DNA of 64,000 nucleotides from Bradyrhizobium huanghuaihaiense (GTDB lineage Bacteria; Pseudomonadota; Alphaproteobacteria; Rhizobiales; Xanthobacteraceae): NCBI RefSeq assembly GCF_007830635.1, contig NZ_VLLA01000002.1, positions 372,001 through 436,000 of the forward strand, written 5' to 3'. Made by a program: the position numbers and the translations under genes. Position 1 is the stretch's first letter, and every line of letters begins with the position of its first letter. Below, piece by piece: positions 2,711-64,000 of the stretch. The notes under the pieces were generated by a model that made no database searches, had not been told where the DNA came from, and was given only the letters and a program-made list of their open reading frames with translations.

Positions 2711-3696
2711 TGCAGCAACTCCAGGATCTGCTCGGCGGCGAGCGCCGGCGTGAGATGGCCATCGGCGACTTCTGTCTCGATCTTGCGGACCTTGGTCCGC
2801 ACCGAGGCCTCGGTACGCAGCCGTGCTAGCATGCGCTGCTCCAGCATCGACCACATCCACTTCACCTGCTGCTCGCGCCGCCGCGCGGCGAAATCGCCGG
2901 ACGCATTCATCGCCTTGCGGTGATCCAGAACCTTCTGCCACAACTCGGCGATGCCGGTGCCGGCCAACGCCGAATAGGTGACAACGGGTGGATGCCAATG
3001 CTCGGATCGCGGCGCCAAAATATGCAGCGCGCCGCGATAGTCGGCAGCGGTGATGTTGGCGCGCTTGAGGTTGTCGCCGTCGGCCTTGTTGATCGCGATC
3101 ATGTCGGCGAGCTCGACCAGGCCCTTCTTGATGCCCTGCAGCTCGTCGCCGCCGCCCGGCAGCATAAGAGCGAGGAAGAAATCGGTCATGTCGCAGACAG
3201 CAGTCTCGGACTGGCCGATACCGACCGTCTCGACCAGCACGACGCCGAAGCCGGCCGCCTCGCACAAGAGCATCGCCTCGCGCGTCTTGGCGGCGACGCC
3301 GCCGAGCGTGCCCGAGGACGGCGAGGGGCGGATGAAGGCGTCGGCGGAGGCCGACAACCGCGCCATCCTGGTCTTGTCGCCGAGGATCGAGCCACCGCTG
3401 CGCGCCGAGGACGGATCGACCGCGAGCACCGCGACCTTGTGGCCCTGCTCGATCAGATAGGTCCCGAGCGCATCGATGGTGGTGGATTTGCCGACGCCAG
3501 GCGAGCCGGTGATGCCGACACGAAACGCCTTGCCGGTGTCGGGAAGCAGCTTCTGCACCAGCTCCCGCGCCAGCGCCTGATGGTCGGCGCGACGGCTCTC
3601 CACCAGCGTGATGGCCCGCGCGAGCGCCGCGCGGCTGCCGGCGCGCAGGTCGCGGGCGAGGGTTTTGATGTCCAGCGAGGCCTTCTTCTCAGTCAT
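2707..3696 (-). CDS. meaB: Methylmalonyl-CoA mutase-associated GTPase MeaB
   Basis: 329 aa G3E-family GTPase (older name ArgK) that gates cofactor delivery to, and protects, B12-dependent methylmalonyl-CoA mutase. Walker A is at residues 61-71 (GITGSPGVGKS); the VLAVDPSSARSGGSILGDKTRM and ETVGIGQSE segments are family signatures. The C-terminal helical dimerisation region is present, so the protein appears full length. It lies 51 bp after tctA and overlaps pcp by 4 bp, whereas its mutase clients (mutA, mutB) are 5-10 kb upstream on the same strand, with unrelated genes between. Confidence 0.95.
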   Translation of the reverse strand: MTEKKASLDIKTLARDLRAGSRAALARAITLVESRRADHQALARELVQKLLPDTGKAFRVGITGSPGVGKSTTIDALGTYLIEQGHKVAVLAVDPSSARSGGSILGDKTRMARLSASADAFIRPSPSSGTLGGVAAKTREAMLLCEAAGFGVVLVETVGIGQSETAVCDMTDFFLALMLPGGGDELQGIKKGLVELADMIAINKADGDNLKRANITAADYRGALHILAPRSEHWHPPVVTYSALAGTGIAELWQKVLDHRKAMNASGDFAARRREQQVKWMWSMLEQRMLARLRTEASVRTKVRKIETEVADGHLTPALAAEQILELLQ

Positions 3697-3747
3697 GCCC
3701 TGCTTTACAACGCCGAGGGAGGGCAGGCGAGGGCCGCCCGCCCGATA

Positions 3748-58746: not shown

Positions 58747-59148
58747 CTACCTGGCCTCGACCACCTCGCCATCCTCCTTCACGAAGCGGCCGACTGGATT
58801 GTCCAGGAGATCGATGACGGCCTCCGAGGGCCGGCACAGCCGCGTGCCCTTCGCCGTCACCACGATCGGACGGTTGATGAGAATGGGATGCGCCATCATG
58901 AAATCGAGCAATTCGTCGTCCGTCCATTTGGAGTCGGCGAGGCCAAGCTCCTTGTAAGGCGTGCCCTTCTCGCGCAGCAGCGCGCGAACGGGAATTCCCA
59001 TCGCCGAGACCAGCTCCTTGAGCCTGTCGCGCGATGGCGGCGTCTTCAGATATTCGATGACGACGGGCTCGACGCCGCTCTGCCGGATCATCGCAAGCGT
59101 GTTGCGCGAAGTGCCGCAGTCGGGGTTATGATAGATCGTGACACTCAT
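58747..59148 (-). CDS. arsC: Arsenate reductase, glutaredoxin-coupled type
   Basis: 133 aa. Reduces arsenate to arsenite using glutathione/glutaredoxin. Active-site Cys11 in YHNPDCGTSRNTL; the arginines that hold the oxyanion are in LLREKG, INRPIVV and GTRLCRP. Overlaps aqpS (ATGA). Confidence 0.95.
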   Translation of the reverse strand: MSVTIYHNPDCGTSRNTLAMIRQSGVEPVVIEYLKTPPSRDRLKELVSAMGIPVRALLREKGTPYKELGLADSKWTDDELLDFMMAHPILINRPIVVTAKGTRLCRPSEAVIDLLDNPVGRFVKEDGEVVEAR

Positions 59149-59846
59149 GATCGGGTCTCCGCAACAGGAATAGGGCCGCGCGCCTTGGTTTGCCCCAGCA
59201 GCCAGTTCATCAATAGCATGCCGGCGATCGCGCCACAGAGCTCCGCGAGGATGAACCCGGGAAGATCAGCCGGGCGAATGCCGGCAAAGGTATTCGTCAG
59301 CGATCGCGCAATTGCCACCGCCGGATTGGCAAACGACGTCGATGCGGTGAACCAGTACGCGGCCGTGATGTAGAGGCCGACCAGCCAGGGAACCGCCGCG
59401 CGCTGGAAGCGGATGCCGCCGAGGATGGTCGCGACCAGCCCGAAAGCGGCGACGGCTTCGGCAAACCATTGTGCCCCGCCGGTCCTGACCTTCGTCGACG
59501 GATCGAGCAGGGGCAGGCCGAACATCAGATGCGCCGCGATCGTCCCGGCGATGCCGCCGGCGATCTGCGCAATCGCGTAGAGCGCGGCTTCATTCACCGG
59601 CAGCTCGCGCCTGCCGGTGAAGACCAGCGTCACCGCCGGATTGAAATGCGCGCCGGAGATCGGACCAAGAACCGTGATCAGGACGACGAGAATGGCCCCG
59701 GTCGGCAAGGTATTGCACAGAAGCGAAAGCGCGACGTCCTTCGTCAGCGTTTCCGCCATGATGCCGGAGCCGACGACGGTGGCGACGAGGATGCCGGTGC
59801 CGAGTGCCTCGGCCGCCAACCGCCGCGGAAGGTCGAATGTCTCCAT
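59145..59846 (-). CDS. aqpS: Aquaglyceroporin AqpS-like arsenite channel
   Basis: 233 aa MIP channel with six helices and both NPA half-helix motifs: GAHFNPAVT and SFANPAVAIAR. Position between arsR and arsC is the arsR-aqpS-arsC order of Sinorhizobium meliloti, where AqpS lets arsenite produced by ArsC leave the cell down its gradient. Function here inferred from that context. Confidence 0.92.
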   Translation of the reverse strand: METFDLPRRLAAEALGTGILVATVVGSGIMAETLTKDVALSLLCNTLPTGAILVVLITVLGPISGAHFNPAVTLVFTGRRELPVNEAALYAIAQIAGGIAGTIAAHLMFGLPLLDPSTKVRTGGAQWFAEAVAAFGLVATILGGIRFQRAAVPWLVGLYITAAYWFTASTSFANPAVAIARSLTNTFAGIRPADLPGFILAELCGAIAGMLLMNWLLGQTKARGPIPVAETRS

Positions 59847-60205
59847 CAGCGCGCTCGCTCCTTTCGTTTCGGCGAGCAGCAGGCTTGAAGACTGTCGACC
59901 ACCGGCTCGCAGACCTCAGGCCGTCCGCCGCAGCAATCGCGCAGCAGGAAAACCGCAACGTCGCGGAATTCGGTGAGGTTGGCGCGGTAGATGATCGAGC
60001 GGCTGTGCCGCTCGGAGGAGACGAGGCGGGCCCGGCTCAAGATCGACAGATGCGCGGAGAGCGTGTTTTGAGGCACTTCCAAAAGGCGCGCGAGGTCGCC
60101 GGCTGCAAGGCCGTCGGGCTCGTGCCGGACCAGGGTCCGGAACGCCTCCAGACGGGTCGACTGGGACAGGGCGGCGAGCGCCAGGACAGCTTCTTCTGTT
60201 TCCAT
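59846..60205 (-). CDS. arsR: ArsR/SmtB-family arsenic repressor 1
   Basis: 119 aa winged helix (TRLEAFRTLVRHEPDGLAAG ... VPQNTLSAHLSILSRARLVSS). The metalloid site is not in the DNA-binding helix but at the C-terminus: Cys91-Cys92 and Cys99, plus Cys109-Cys110, similar in layout to the Acidithiobacillus ferrooxidans ArsR type. Its stop shares a base with the aqpS start. An operator-like repeat overlaps its own start codon. Confidence 0.93.
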   Translation of the reverse strand: METEEAVLALAALSQSTRLEAFRTLVRHEPDGLAAGDLARLLEVPQNTLSAHLSILSRARLVSSERHSRSIIYRANLTEFRDVAVFLLRDCCGGRPEVCEPVVDSLQACCSPKRKERAR

Positions 60206-60224
60206 ATATCCAGACTTATGGAAA
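60199..60224. promoter_or_regulatory. Candidate ArsR-1 operator
   Basis: TTTCCAT (60199-60205) and ATGGAAA (60218-60224) form a perfect inverted repeat with a 12-nt spacer; the left half contains the arsR start codon. Confidence 0.5.
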
Positions 60225-60267
60225 TGTAAAGGTCTCCGTCAACCCGAATGCGCAGCACTTCACAGAC

Positions 60268-60294
60268 ATTATTTCGAATATTCTAGAAATATGG
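60268..60294. promoter_or_regulatory. Candidate ArsR-2 operator, copy 1
   Basis: ATTATT followed by CGAATATTCTAGAAATATGG (60275-60294), with the palindromic core ATTCTAGAAA. It is 24 bp before the ArsR-2 start. 17 of the last 20 bases equal those of copy 2 at 60671-60690. Confidence 0.65.
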
Positions 60295-60318: not shown

Positions 60319-60648
60319 ATGGTGTCGGCCATGAAAATCGATGACGCAGCAGCGCGCCTGGAAGCTCTGGGCAACCGGACCCGGCTTCAGATCTATCGCG
60401 CCCTGGTCCGGGCCGGACATTCGGGCATGCCTGTCGGCCGCTTGCAGGAAAAGCTGAAGATCCCGGCTTCGACGCTGTCGCATCACATCAAGACCCTGGT
60501 TTCGGTCGGGCTCGTCAGTCAGATCAGGGAATCCACGACGCTCGTCTGTCACGCGAACTTCGAGGCCATGCGGGGGCTGGTCGATTTCCTGGCGGCGGAG
60601 TGCTGCGCAGACGAAGTCGGATGCAAGACTACGCAGACGGCGGCGTGA
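60319..60648 (+). CDS. ArsR/SmtB-family arsenic repressor 2
   Basis: 109 aa. Winged helix (LGNRTRLQIYRALVRAG ... IPASTLSHHIKTLVSVGLVS). With this start the C-terminal cysteines fall at 95, 96 and 102 (ECCADEVGC), the same spacing as the As(III) site of A. ferrooxidans ArsR. ATG at 60331 is an alternative start. Divergent from arsR-1; upstream of the flavoprotein. Confidence 0.92.
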   Translation: MVSAMKIDDAAARLEALGNRTRLQIYRALVRAGHSGMPVGRLQEKLKIPASTLSHHIKTLVSVGLVSQIRESTTLVCHANFEAMRGLVDFLAAECCADEVGCKTTQTAA

Positions 60649-60664
60649 TCTTTTTTTGGCCGAT

Positions 60665-60690
60665 ATTATTCGATGATTCTAGAAAGATGG
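60665..60690. promoter_or_regulatory. Candidate ArsR-2 operator, copy 2
   Basis: ATTATT then CGATGATTCTAGAAAGATGG (60671-60690), 10 bp before the flavoprotein ATG. It sits in the short gap after the ArsR-2 gene, implying a second regulated promoter there. Confidence 0.65.
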
Positions 60691-60700
60691 GAGAAGCCGA

Positions 60701-62065
60701 ATGAACGCCAAGACGGTTGCTATCATCGGGGCAGGGCCTGTTGGCCTCGCTGCAGCAGCCCATGTGCTCGAACGCGGCATGTCGCCCGTCGTGCTCGAGG
60801 CGGGCCCTGAGGCGGGACACGCGATCCGGCAATGGCAGCATGTCCAGCTGTTCTCGCCGTGGGAGTACAATGTCGACAAGGCCGCCGCGCGCATGCTGGC
60901 GCCGACGGGATGGAATTCGCCGGACCCTCAGTCCTATCCGACCGGCGGCGAGCTGCTTGACCGGTACCTGATGCCGCTCGCCACGCGAACGCCGCTGCGT
61001 GAGGCGATCCGGACATCGAGCCGCGTCTCGGCCATCAGCCGCGTCGGCTTCGACAAGGCGAAGACCAGGGGCAGGGAGCAAGCCCCTTTCGAAATCCGCT
61101 ACCAGAACGGCAAGGGCCCCGAGGTCCTGCGGGCGGATGCCGTGATCGATACATCAGGCACTTGGTTCTCGCCGAATCCGGCCGGCCGCAACGGTTTGCC
61201 GGCGATCGGCGAGCCTGAATGCGCCGGCCGCGTTGCCTACGGCATGCCGGATGTGCGAGGTGCCGCTCGCTCCAGATATGCCGGGAAGATCGTTGCTGTG
61301 CTCGGCGCCGGCCATTCCGCCGTTGGCACGCTGATCGATCTCGTGCATCTCGCCGATCAAGTGCCGGGCACGCAACCCGTCTGGCTCTTGCGCGGCGCCG
61401 ATCCCGCCAAGGCCTTCGGCGGCGGCCGCAACGATAAGCTCGCCGCACGCGGTGAGCTTGGCGCTGCCTTCGCCGCGCTTGTCGCCTCCGGGAAGATCAG
61501 AGTTGAGGCCGAATTTGGCGTCACGCATCTCTCGGGATCTGAAGGCCGCCTCAAAATTGCAGCCGGTTCCTGTTCCGGTGCGCGCAGCGTGATCGCAGAC
61601 GAATTGATCGTATCGACCGGCTTCCGTCCAGACTTCTCCTTCCTGTCCGAGCTGCGCCTGCGGCTCGATCCGGCCATCGAGGCGCCGGTCGCGCTGGCGC
61701 CGCTGATCGATCCCAACGAGCACAGCTGCGGCACGGTGCGCCCGCACGGCGCGCGCGAGCTCGCGCACGATGAACCGGGCTTCTATCTCGCCGGCATGAA
61801 ATCCTACGGTCGTGCGCCAACCTTCCTGATGATGACCGGATACGAGCAGGTCCGCTCGATCGCGGCCGATCTCGCTGGCGACAAGGTGGCGGCGGCGAGA
61901 GTCGAGCTTGTGCTGCCCGAGACCGGCGTCTGCACGCGTGGCGGCGTCGAGACCGGGGCCGCAGCGGGATGCTGCGGCGGACCTCCGAAGGAGGAGCTAT
62001 CAGCCTGCTGTGCCGCTGATGAAACGGCCAAGAAGGCTGGCACCGCGGGGTGTGGCTGCTCATGA
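60701..62065 (+). CDS. ArsO-like flavoprotein with cysteine-rich tail
   Basis: 454 aa. FAD-binding GAGPVGLAAA (10-19) at the N-terminus and a second Rossmann motif VAVLGAGHSAVGTLIDL (about 198-214) for NAD(P)H, the layout of class B flavin monooxygenase relatives including the putative monooxygenase ArsO of arsenic islands. The last 35 residues hold six cysteines in CC, CC and CGC pairs (GCCGG, SACCAAD, GCGCS), like a metalloid-binding tail. Overlaps the MFS gene (ATGA). Activity on an arsenical is inferred from context. Confidence 0.8.
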   Translation: MNAKTVAIIGAGPVGLAAAAHVLERGMSPVVLEAGPEAGHAIRQWQHVQLFSPWEYNVDKAAARMLAPTGWNSPDPQSYPTGGELLDRYLMPLATRTPLREAIRTSSRVSAISRVGFDKAKTRGREQAPFEIRYQNGKGPEVLRADAVIDTSGTWFSPNPAGRNGLPAIGEPECAGRVAYGMPDVRGAARSRYAGKIVAVLGAGHSAVGTLIDLVHLADQVPGTQPVWLLRGADPAKAFGGGRNDKLAARGELGAAFAALVASGKIRVEAEFGVTHLSGSEGRLKIAAGSCSGARSVIADELIVSTGFRPDFSFLSELRLRLDPAIEAPVALAPLIDPNEHSCGTVRPHGARELAHDEPGFYLAGMKSYGRAPTFLMMTGYEQVRSIAADLAGDKVAAARVELVLPETGVCTRGGVETGAAAGCCGGPPKEELSACCAADETAKKAGTAGCGCS

Positions 62066-63282
62066 CGCAAGTCCCTGCGGGCCAGGCTCGAGGCCCGCTC
62101 GCCATCGTGCTCGCGCTCGGCACCGCCCAGACGATTGCGTGGGCGTCGAGCTATTATCTTCCCGCCATCCTGGCTGCACCGATCGCCCGCGATCTCGGTC
62201 TTGCGCCGACCTATGTGTTCGGTGCGCTCTCGGGCGCGCTCGTCATCTCCGGGCTGCTCGGCCCGCGGGTCGGGCATGCCATCGACACGTTCGGAGGGCG
62301 CGGTCTGCTCGCGATCTCGAACGTCGTGTTTGTGGCAGGGTTGCTCCTGCTGTCGGTGGCCCATGGCGCGGCGGTGTTGATCGCGGCCTGGGCGTTGCTC
62401 GGGATCGGCATGGGCATGGGCCTCTATGAAGCGGCCTTCGCAACGCTTGCGCGGATCTATGGCACCAATGCGCGGCGAACCATCACCGGCATCACCCTGA
62501 TCGCCGGTTTCGCCAGCACGCTCGGCTGGCCGCTCACGACGTGGCTTGCTTCCGAGTATGGCTGGCGCGTCGCCTGCCAGGTCTGGGCGGCGATCCATAT
62601 CGCGCTCGCGTTGCCGCTCAATCTCTCGCTGCCGCGCGCCGTTCCATTGGACCAGCAGCCTCGACCGGGTGCGGCTGCGAACCGGCAATCCGGACGCCAG
62701 AGCGAGACCTTCGCGATGGTGCTGCTGGCTTACATGTTCGCGGCGGCAAGCTTCGTCAGTTCGGGAATCTCGGCCATTCTGCCGACCATGCTGGTTGCGT
62801 TCGGTGCTAGTCCGGCGCAGGCCTTGCTCGCGGGCGCATTGGTTGGGCCTGCACAGGTCGGCGCGAGGCTTCTGGAGGCGGGATGGCTCGCCAGGTTTCA
62901 TCCGCTGCTCTCGGCGAGGCTGGCCATGCTCATGAATCCGATCGGCGTCGTCGCGCTGGTCGCGGGCGGCCCCTTGCTCGCGACGACTTTCACGGTGCTG
63001 TATGGCGCGGGCAACGGCATCATCACCATCGCCCGCGGGACGCTTCCTCTTGCGCTGTTCGGGCCGGCCGGTTTCGGCAAGCGCGTCGGCATGATCTCGC
63101 TGCCTTCGAGGGTAACGGGTGCCGCCGCACCGCTCGCGCTGGGGCTGATGGTAGAGCACATCGGCAGCAGCGCGCTGTGGATCAGCGCGCTCGTTTCGCT
63201 TTCGGCCTTCTTTGCGCTCTTGCTGTTACGTAGCGAGCAGGCAACATCGACGCCCCTCCAGGTGGGAGAACAAAATTCCTAA
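62062..63282 (+). CDS. MFS transporter, candidate arsenical efflux pump
   Basis: 406 aa with 12 predicted helices (VLALGTAQTIAWASSYYLPA first; last near LWISALVSLSAFFALLLL). Translationally coupled to the flavoprotein, so it may export that enzyme's product. MFS pumps ArsJ and ArsK are known in other arsenic loci; I cannot say which, if either, this resembles. No Acr3 or ArsB pump is in the window. Confidence 0.85.
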   Translation: MTQVPAGQARGPLAIVLALGTAQTIAWASSYYLPAILAAPIARDLGLAPTYVFGALSGALVISGLLGPRVGHAIDTFGGRGLLAISNVVFVAGLLLLSVAHGAAVLIAAWALLGIGMGMGLYEAAFATLARIYGTNARRTITGITLIAGFASTLGWPLTTWLASEYGWRVACQVWAAIHIALALPLNLSLPRAVPLDQQPRPGAAANRQSGRQSETFAMVLLAYMFAAASFVSSGISAILPTMLVAFGASPAQALLAGALVGPAQVGARLLEAGWLARFHPLLSARLAMLMNPIGVVALVAGGPLLATTFTVLYGAGNGIITIARGTLPLALFGPAGFGKRVGMISLPSRVTGAAAPLALGLMVEHIGSSALWISALVSLSAFFALLLLRSEQATSTPLQVGEQNS

Positions 63283-63283
63283 G

Positions 63284-64000
63284 CTGAGCGCTCGGTCCCT
63301 GATTGCGGTGATGTGCATCGGCCAGGTCGGCAATCTGCTGCCGCATGTCACGCTGTCCGCAAACCTGGCGCAGCATCTGATGCCGGCGTGGGGTCTCTCC
63401 GCCGCCGAAGGCGGGTTGATGGCGAGCGGTTATGCCTTCGGCTACATGCTCGCCGTGCCCGTGCTGACGACCTTGACCGACCGCATCGATGCGCGCCTCG
63501 TCCTGCTCTGGGGCTCGATCGTCAGTGGCCTAGCCACCGTAGCATTCGGCATCTTCGCGCAAGGGTTTTGGTCGGGGACCGCGATCTGGTCGCTCGCAGG
63601 ACTTGGATTTGCCGGCGCCTACATGCCCGGCCTGAAGGCGCTGACGGACCGGCTTCCCGCCGGCGACACGTCGCGGGCGGTCACCCTGTACACGTCGAGC
63701 TTCTCGGTCGGCGTCGGGCTCTCGTTCCTCGTCGCGCAACTGATCGCCGACAGCTGGGGATGGCGGGCCGCTTTCCTTGTCACCGCCTGCGGCCCGATCG
63801 CAATGGTTGTCGCGTGCCTCCTGATCGACCGGCGGCAGCCTGTACCGAAGGTCGGGCGGCTGCTGAACTTCGCGCCCGTCTTCGCCAACCGCGAGGCGCT
63901 CGGATACATCCTGGGCTATGGCGCCCACTGCTTCGAGCTCTACGGCATCCGCACCTGGCTGGTCGGGTTCTGGACGTTCGTCGTCGCGCATCAGGGCGCA
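63284..64000 (+). CDS. MFS transporter, 3' end outside window
   Basis: 239 codons seen without a stop. The protein reads LSARSLIAVMCIGQVGNLLP..., with YMLAVPVLTTLTDRIDARLV (helix 2-3 loop), GFAGAYMPGLKALTDRLP and GYGAHCFELYGIRTWLVGFW, the look of a CynX/NimT-like MFS. The start is uncertain: CTG at 63284 or ATT at 63275 are well placed after GGGAG (63264-63268), while GTG 63308 and ATG 63311 would cut into helix 1. It follows the previous MFS gene directly. Confidence 0.75.
   Translation, partial: MSARSLIAVMCIGQVGNLLPHVTLSANLAQHLMPAWGLSAAEGGLMASGYAFGYMLAVPVLTTLTDRIDARLVLLWGSIVSGLATVAFGIFAQGFWSGTAIWSLAGLGFAGAYMPGLKALTDRLPAGDTSRAVTLYTSSFSVGVGLSFLVAQLIADSWGWRAAFLVTACGPIAMVVACLLIDRRQPVPKVGRLLNFAPVFANREALGYILGYGAHCFELYGIRTWLVGFWTFVVAHQGA

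Follow-up and report, generated by a model that had tools for sequence, protein, structure and literature searches.

What kind of detoxification does the second arsenic-resistance (ars) unit of Bradyrhizobium huanghuaihaiense carry out, and what is the role of the paired cysteines in which its central flavoprotein ends? The unit lies at the end of the window, i.e., the whole analysed stretch of 64,000 nucleotides (contig NZ_VLLA01000002.1 of assembly GCF_007830635.1, positions 372,001 to 436,000 of the forward strand), in a host genome of 9.2 Mb. An earlier note on this DNA had described positions 60,319 to 63,282 as a second, uncharacterised arsenic module, consisting of its own ArsR repressor (ArsR-2), an ArsO-like flavoprotein with a cysteine-rich tail and a pump of the major facilitator superfamily (MFS). 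All three genes are confirmed as open reading frames (ORFs), the flavoprotein being of the two-Rossmann type and the pump gene (MFS1) starting with an ATG that overlaps the flavoprotein TGA (ATGA). They are oriented divergently from the genes for ArsR-1, a MIP channel and ArsC, and their separation from this ArsC/AqpS route as a unit with its own ArsR is likewise supported. A second pump gene, MFS2, directly adjoins MFS1 and overlaps its end. The reading proposed here, with a probability of roughly 0.68, is that arsR-2, the flavoprotein gene, MFS1 and MFS2 form an ArsR-controlled unit which would detoxify trivalent arsenicals, the cysteine-rich tail serving as a binding domain.

The arsenic link of the flavoprotein family is strong because, among 114 homologous ORFs of at least 45% identity (near-duplicates included; locus L095 is the window itself), an ArsR-like gene lies directly upstream in 92 and a pump of one of four types next downstream in 96. 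The next matched downstream gene is MFS1-like in 47 cases, MFS2-like in 27, ArsK-like in 14, like the MFS gene of Streptomyces FR-008 in 8 and ArsC in 2, while none of the query genes follows in 13 and a contig edge intervenes in three. The closest relatives belong to Bradyrhizobium (loci L014–L028, 86–91% identical), and the flavoprotein is present in 46 of the 198 genomes of the window's family. A plasmid search returned 155 records across Pseudomonadota, Actinomycetota and Bacillota, including some ArsO-like or short matches; 16 annotated plasmid regions contain a homologue, with an annotated ArsR-family gene in 15 and ArsN1, an arsinothricin-resistance gene, in three. At L125, L126 and L132 the flavoprotein homologue lies close to ArsN1 and to a MarR-type regulator, which may be a further regulator of this enzyme.

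The earlier note had also proposed nucleotide-binding sites and six paired cysteines, and both are borne out. The sites correspond to GAGPVG (residues 10–15) and GAGHSA (residues 202–207); the N-terminal GxGxxG is present in all 53 aligned relatives and GxGHSA in 52, as expected of sites for flavin adenine dinucleotide (FAD) and nicotinamide adenine dinucleotide (phosphate). The window tail carries C424 and C425, C436 and C437, and C451 and C453, with C411 just before it. Across the 53-row alignment the first two pairs are kept in 51–52 rows and the last two cysteines in 45, and C411 is invariant, as is C343. At least four cysteines follow an LPETGVC-type motif in 114/114 homologous ORFs (one with a variant motif, one cut by a contig end), and 25 tails yield the consensus CCGGP-x6-ACC-x2-D-x2-AK-x2-G-x2-GCGC. 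Such an ending exceeds chance: when the last 50 residues of ORFs of at least 150 amino acids were compared in the window plus 81 further loci (one overlapping the window), two or more CC pairs occurred in 55 of 57 recognised flavoproteins as opposed to 3 of 585 other ORFs, one of these three exceptions (L075) being a family member that the motif did not recognise. The tail is a hallmark of the flavoprotein family. The tail of the window protein has no Pfam or NCBIfam match at E values up to 10. The AlphaFold model of the flavoprotein is of good quality, with a predicted local distance difference test (pLDDT) score of 86.3, apart from residues 408–435 of the tail, which are of low confidence and flexible.

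The tail is also encoded without the flavoprotein. Searches with a profile built from the 25 tails covered 41 relatives and, in addition, genomes of the class (289), of the family of genome G230 (20), of the order of genome G493 (61) and of the phylum (398), some genomes recurring between draws. Inspected hits (class, G230 family and G493 order) were either flavoprotein ORFs or short separate ORFs, whereas most strong hits among the 41 relatives and in the phylum draw were judged only by the length of their open frame (455–576 amino acids). Six of nine genomes of the Kiloniella genus (g277, which includes Kiloniella laminariae) contain an ArsR-2-like gene (54–58% identical to ArsR-2) and, starting 48–101 bp downstream, a tail-like ORF of 55–60 amino acids. 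Of the remaining three, two possess the flavoprotein together with MFS1, and the third, which is 77% complete, carries neither arrangement; searching the genus for flavoproteins gave those two genomes only and none of the six with a detached tail. G230, from another family of the window's order, provides an independent case: here the tail version has 67 amino acids and a GGAGGA site, and its gene is flanked by a PadR-like regulator on one side and a pair of ArsK-like (50%) and ArsH-like (77%) genes on the other; a flavoprotein search of this genome found none. The neighbouring PadR-like regulator (L180, around 3280–3699) contains a CC motif as well as ACCG at its C terminus and is possibly an arsenic-sensing PadR.

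The host genome yields one weak tail hit beyond the flavoprotein (C16:177340, E 0.005), and two more weak hits occur among relatives, L168 and L169, the latter locus containing a flavoprotein with a diverged tail. One chance-level Pfam match (E 0.13) was obtained for a small protein. Searching plasmids with the G230 protein gave no match, and with the Kiloniella-genus protein 12 records, of which 11 lie on flavoprotein matches or annotated flavoproteins and the twelfth is the decayed flavoprotein copy of Bosea sp. AS-1, rejected as a detached tail. This strain, described as antimonite- and arsenite-oxidising in the title of a cited study, has an unannotated match to the flavoprotein next to ars genes on one plasmid and the decayed copy on another (L129, L211).

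These stand-alone genes bear on the suggestion of the earlier note that the tail binds As(III) and presents it to the FAD. Presentation may be part of its function, but it cannot be the sole one, because seven genomes in which no flavoprotein was found carry the tail as a separate gene. They argue for a function of the tail's own (sequestration or chaperoning), to which fusion would add a means of passing arsenic locally to the flavoprotein or the pump. We therefore lean, by a small margin, towards the tail being a portable arsenic-binding domain, used either fused or as an ArsR- or PadR-associated mini-protein of 55–67 amino acids. ArsD, a metallochaperone, offers a related but considerably less likely model, in which the tail would hand trivalent arsenic over to the neighbouring MFS pump and the activity of the flavin domain would be a separate one. 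Such a hand-over would suit G230, where the detached tail directly precedes an ArsK-like pump, as well as the flavoprotein stop codon, which at 60 of 113 loci is part of ATGA or GTGA and thereby suggests coupling to the next gene. It is at odds with the six Kiloniella-genus loci: over about 1.5 kb, and over about 5 kb at one locus, queries that included the pumps matched nothing but the ArsR and the tail. According to the abstract of a paper published in 2025 (PMC12093948), no dedicated arsenic-sequestering or chaperone gene has been found in ars operons. Neither the tail nor its stand-alone version was seen in the open-licence literature among the matches listed, which is no proof of their being unpublished. 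If the binding domain is real, the tail is a candidate for this missing intracellular sequestration function.

As for the flavoprotein itself, the ArsO-like label of the earlier note does not hold. Against the ArsO model NF040505 the protein scores 51.9 bits at a cut-off of 425, its Ensifer and FR-008 homologues scoring 53.3 and 51.9 bits, respectively, and ArsO membership is rejected. ArsO of Streptomyces FR-008 resembles it as a two-Rossmann flavoprotein within an ars cluster, yet lacks the cysteine tail and is encoded by a separate annotated gene in the same cluster as the 52%-identical homologue, which is followed by an MFS gene. The class-B flavin monooxygenase fingerprint, FxGxxxHxxx[YFW], is present in FR-008 ArsO but in none of the 53 family rows. 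The closest solved folds are Bdr/YpdA (Z 30.9, root-mean-square deviation 2.9 over 321 residues), followed by those of flavin monooxygenases and of thioredoxin reductases, in a comparison (Foldseek, VIA-align) that scarcely covers residues after 412.

This ranking raises the alternative of a thiol-disulfide reductase (Bdr/thioredoxin-reductase type) that would recycle oxidised tail cysteines or a thiol–arsenic adduct rather than oxidise an arsenical. Besides Bdr, other pyridine-nucleotide disulfide reductases are among the top folds, the monooxygenase fingerprint is missing, and C343 and C411 provide two invariant core cysteines. However, flavin monooxygenases are likewise among the top folds, and Bdr membership is rejected (TIGR04018, 40.5 bits vs. 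339.9). The cysteine of the Bdr glycine-rich motif (GGGPCG), which has a role in Bdr/YpdA function, is replaced by valine, and no comparable cysteine tail was aligned. A reductase is the more doubtful of the two alternatives considered so far.

The family is instead very probably the published ArsV family, on the grounds of gene context. ArsV is reportedly described from Ensifer adhaerens ST2, where its gene presumably is the flavoprotein gene in the ars operon beside ArsR and ArsK. The order ArsR–flavoprotein–ArsK is found in Ensifer: in E. adhaerens E-60 and in Rhizobium rhizogenes the flavoprotein gene, whose product has the same tail as in the window, shares 4 bp with an annotated ArsK gene, whereas the window pump is only ArsK-related. 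No NCBIfam model for ArsV appeared among the flavoprotein matches. In one review (PMC10080717) and two research papers (PMC11719878, PMC9144182), ArsV is named as acting on organic arsenicals, i.e., as an organoarsenical oxidase, with antimonite added in the title of a cited ArsV study, and efflux of methylarsenite is the function given in a table for arsK of E. adhaerens ST2. Since the Ensifer gene order fits the work on ArsV and ArsK as cited there, calling the module uncharacterised was probably wrong, and the core unit of the window is probably a new member of a known system. ArsV of Paracoccus sp. SY, which occurs with ArsW, is similarly a flavin-dependent enzyme of ars operons, a likeness known by description and context; the window unit differs in its two MFS pumps. 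What is new here is the second pump, the specific operator and the detachable tail.

The small genes of the Kiloniella genus have dN values of 0.06–0.57 and dS values of 0.33–2.02 (nonsynonymous and synonymous divergence, several dS being near saturation), a pattern by which they are under purifying selection. That detached tails are functionless left-overs of deleted flavoprotein genes is highly improbable, for although decayed flavoprotein copies exist (e.g., in Bosea sp. AS-1) and the fused form also occurs in the Kiloniella genus, six species keep an intact ORF with all motif cysteines, dN is below dS in 15/15 pairs, G230 is an independent case, and, by eye, the start, the spacing to ArsR, a purine-rich stretch before the start and a hairpin-like sequence after the gene (in at least five of the six) are retained.

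A common repressor type further connects fused and detached tails. The only match to TATTTC-N10-GAAATA with zero mismatches in the 64 kb window lies upstream of arsR-2, and this dyad is the probable ArsR-2 operator. At up to three mismatches the window holds nine matches where 3.3 are expected (0 of 100 shuffles reached nine), and most of the weak ones among them may be due to chance. In 822 kb of related loci (L014–L093) there are 55 copies of a relaxed dyad, as opposed to 0.0 in shuffles: 53 lie upstream of an ArsR gene, one in the gap before the flavoprotein and one elsewhere. An Ensifer copy (L011) also has the dyad. The core, TTCTAGAA, occurs in the window only at 60,281 and 60,677, i.e., in both control gaps, and 94 times in 1.0 Mb of flavoprotein loci. 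Ninety-two of these copies fall within loci with an assigned upstream ArsR, 51 of them upstream of ArsR, 40 in the gap between ArsR and the flavoprotein and one elsewhere; counted by locus, the core is upstream of ArsR in 50/92 and in the gap in 40/92, and 20 of the 42 loci lacking an exact upstream core differ by one mismatch. Within the host genome the decamer is found at five places, two of them in the ArsR-2 unit and three without the dyad. In five of the six Kiloniella-genus loci the core precedes ArsR (one as a full dyad, four with one mismatch), linking their small genes with a repressor of the same type. The operator defines a regulon that can be searched for in other genomes. Two overlapping weak dyad matches (three and two mismatches) at the start of arsR-1 (60,197–60,226) possibly reflect chance or cross-regulation.

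ArsR-2 has a second in-frame ATG at 60,331, which is the start point in relatives. Its C-terminal CC-x5-C has the spacing of a type-2 ArsR such as AfArsR, whose site comprises Cys95, Cys96 and Cys102 (PMC11868830), and would qualify as a metalloid site, although the spacing varies among close ArsR-2 relatives.

MFS1 matches the ArsK model NF033733 over nearly its whole length, yet at 234 bits it stays below the cut-off of 400 and was rejected as ArsK proper, whereas the Ensifer partner scores 513 bits; by sequence likeness, it is a sister group of ArsK. MFS2 likely starts with the rare start codon ATT at 63,275–63,277, behind a GGAG-like site, and ATT stands at the equivalent position in 8/8 copies (window, L014, L015, L016, L017, L025, L026 and L028). 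The 198 genomes gave 38 MFS2 rows, of which 28 were kept (near-full-length, at least 59% identity) and 10 dropped (two pieces of a single gene, and rows with no more than 49% identity). Seventeen of the 28 lie within 2 kb of a flavoprotein; among the 11 others, four are beside ArsR or other ars genes, six have no match to the ars queries and one, in G059 at a contig edge, was left out of the neighbourhood comparison. MFS1 and MFS2 occur in either order, MFS2 alone can follow the flavoprotein, and the two pumps may serve different arsenic species. An ars operon at L136 (G075:C23; ArsR, ArsC, AqpS, ArsC) ends in MFS1–MFS2 without a flavoprotein match.

On the proposed reading of the unit as an ArsR-controlled detoxification system, trivalent arsenic would enter the cell and bind the CC-x5-C site of ArsR-2, which would then leave the TATTTC-N10-GAAATA operator and permit what is presumably co-transcription of the unit. 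The flavoprotein, probably ArsV, would draw on NADPH, FAD and O2 in oxidising trivalent organoarsenicals (e.g., methylarsenite), and perhaps also Sb(III), which would yield the less toxic pentavalent form, and MFS1 and MFS2 may export the substrate or the product. The flexible tail, as an independent domain binding trivalent arsenicals, would capture the metalloid and keep it near enzyme and pump; in other genomes a separate small gene encodes it, which would be under ArsR control. MerA and bacterial metallothioneins handle a soft metal through cysteine pairs that are C-terminal or clustered. The analogy with the tail is mechanistic, as no sequence relation is shown and no Pfam or NCBIfam match to the tail exceeds its cut-off; being small, cysteine-rich and conserved, the detached tails are candidate metal(loid) binders by analogy with metallothioneins.

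Several observations weigh against this reading. Twenty-two of the 114 homologous ORFs have no ArsR-like match directly upstream and 13 no query gene downstream, and MFS2 is found at six places without ars-query matches. The absent class-B fingerprint and a disulfide reductase as the nearest fold make oxygenase chemistry no more than a tentative proposal, and the assignment to ArsV is one by gene context. ArsM has 18 matches in the host genome and none over the cut-off, so that an organic trivalent substrate (methylarsenite) would probably come from outside. Seven plasmid homologues from Actinomycetota and Bacillota have only two to four tail cysteines, and the full tail is accordingly seen only in Pseudomonadota. 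Finally, the sixth Kiloniella-genus locus lacks the operator core, and the G230 locus lacks both core and ArsR.

As far as the window is concerned, the module is for the most part one more example of a system that is probably known already. If the tail is a self-contained arsenic-binding domain, sensors or remediation could make use of it as a genetically encoded arsenic ligand of very small size, and comparing tail-fused enzyme, tail-deleted enzyme and free tail makes arsenic hand-over from tethered thiols to detoxifying enzymes testable.

Table 1. Coordinates of the second ars unit and the divergent genes in the window.
Feature	Position	Strand	Remarks
ArsR-2	60319..60648	+	start 60319 or 60331; NF033788 59.5 bits (cut-off 55); PF12840 50.2 bits (cut-off 27)
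Flavoprotein, 454 amino acids, FAD/NAD(P), probable ArsV family	60701..62065	+	PF13738 51.2 bits (cut-off 30)
Cysteine-rich tail of flavoprotein, residues 412–454	61934..62062	+	
MFS1, ArsK-related pump	62062..63282	+	NF033733 (ArsK model) 234 bits, under cut-off 400
MFS2, second pump	63275..64000 in window, stops at 64489 beyond window end	+	PF07690 100 bits (L009 7284–8486)
ArsR-1, divergent from ArsR-2 unit	59846..60205	-	NF033788 61.1 bits (cut-off 55)
MIP channel, AqpS by context	59145..59846	-	PF00230 83.8 bits
ArsC, glutaredoxin-type arsenate reductase	58747..59148	-	TIGR00014 146 bits (cut-off 106)
Probable ArsR-2 operator TATTTC-N10-GAAATA	60270..60291	.	5' of arsR-2; perfect dyad
Degenerate second operator copy, arsR-2/flavoprotein gap	60666..60687	.	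3 mismatches to dyad; core TTCTAGAA at 60677

About 1.2 kb past MFS2 (L009 9651–10205), a low-molecular-weight phosphatase-like protein (PF01451) with an apparent signal peptide is encoded.

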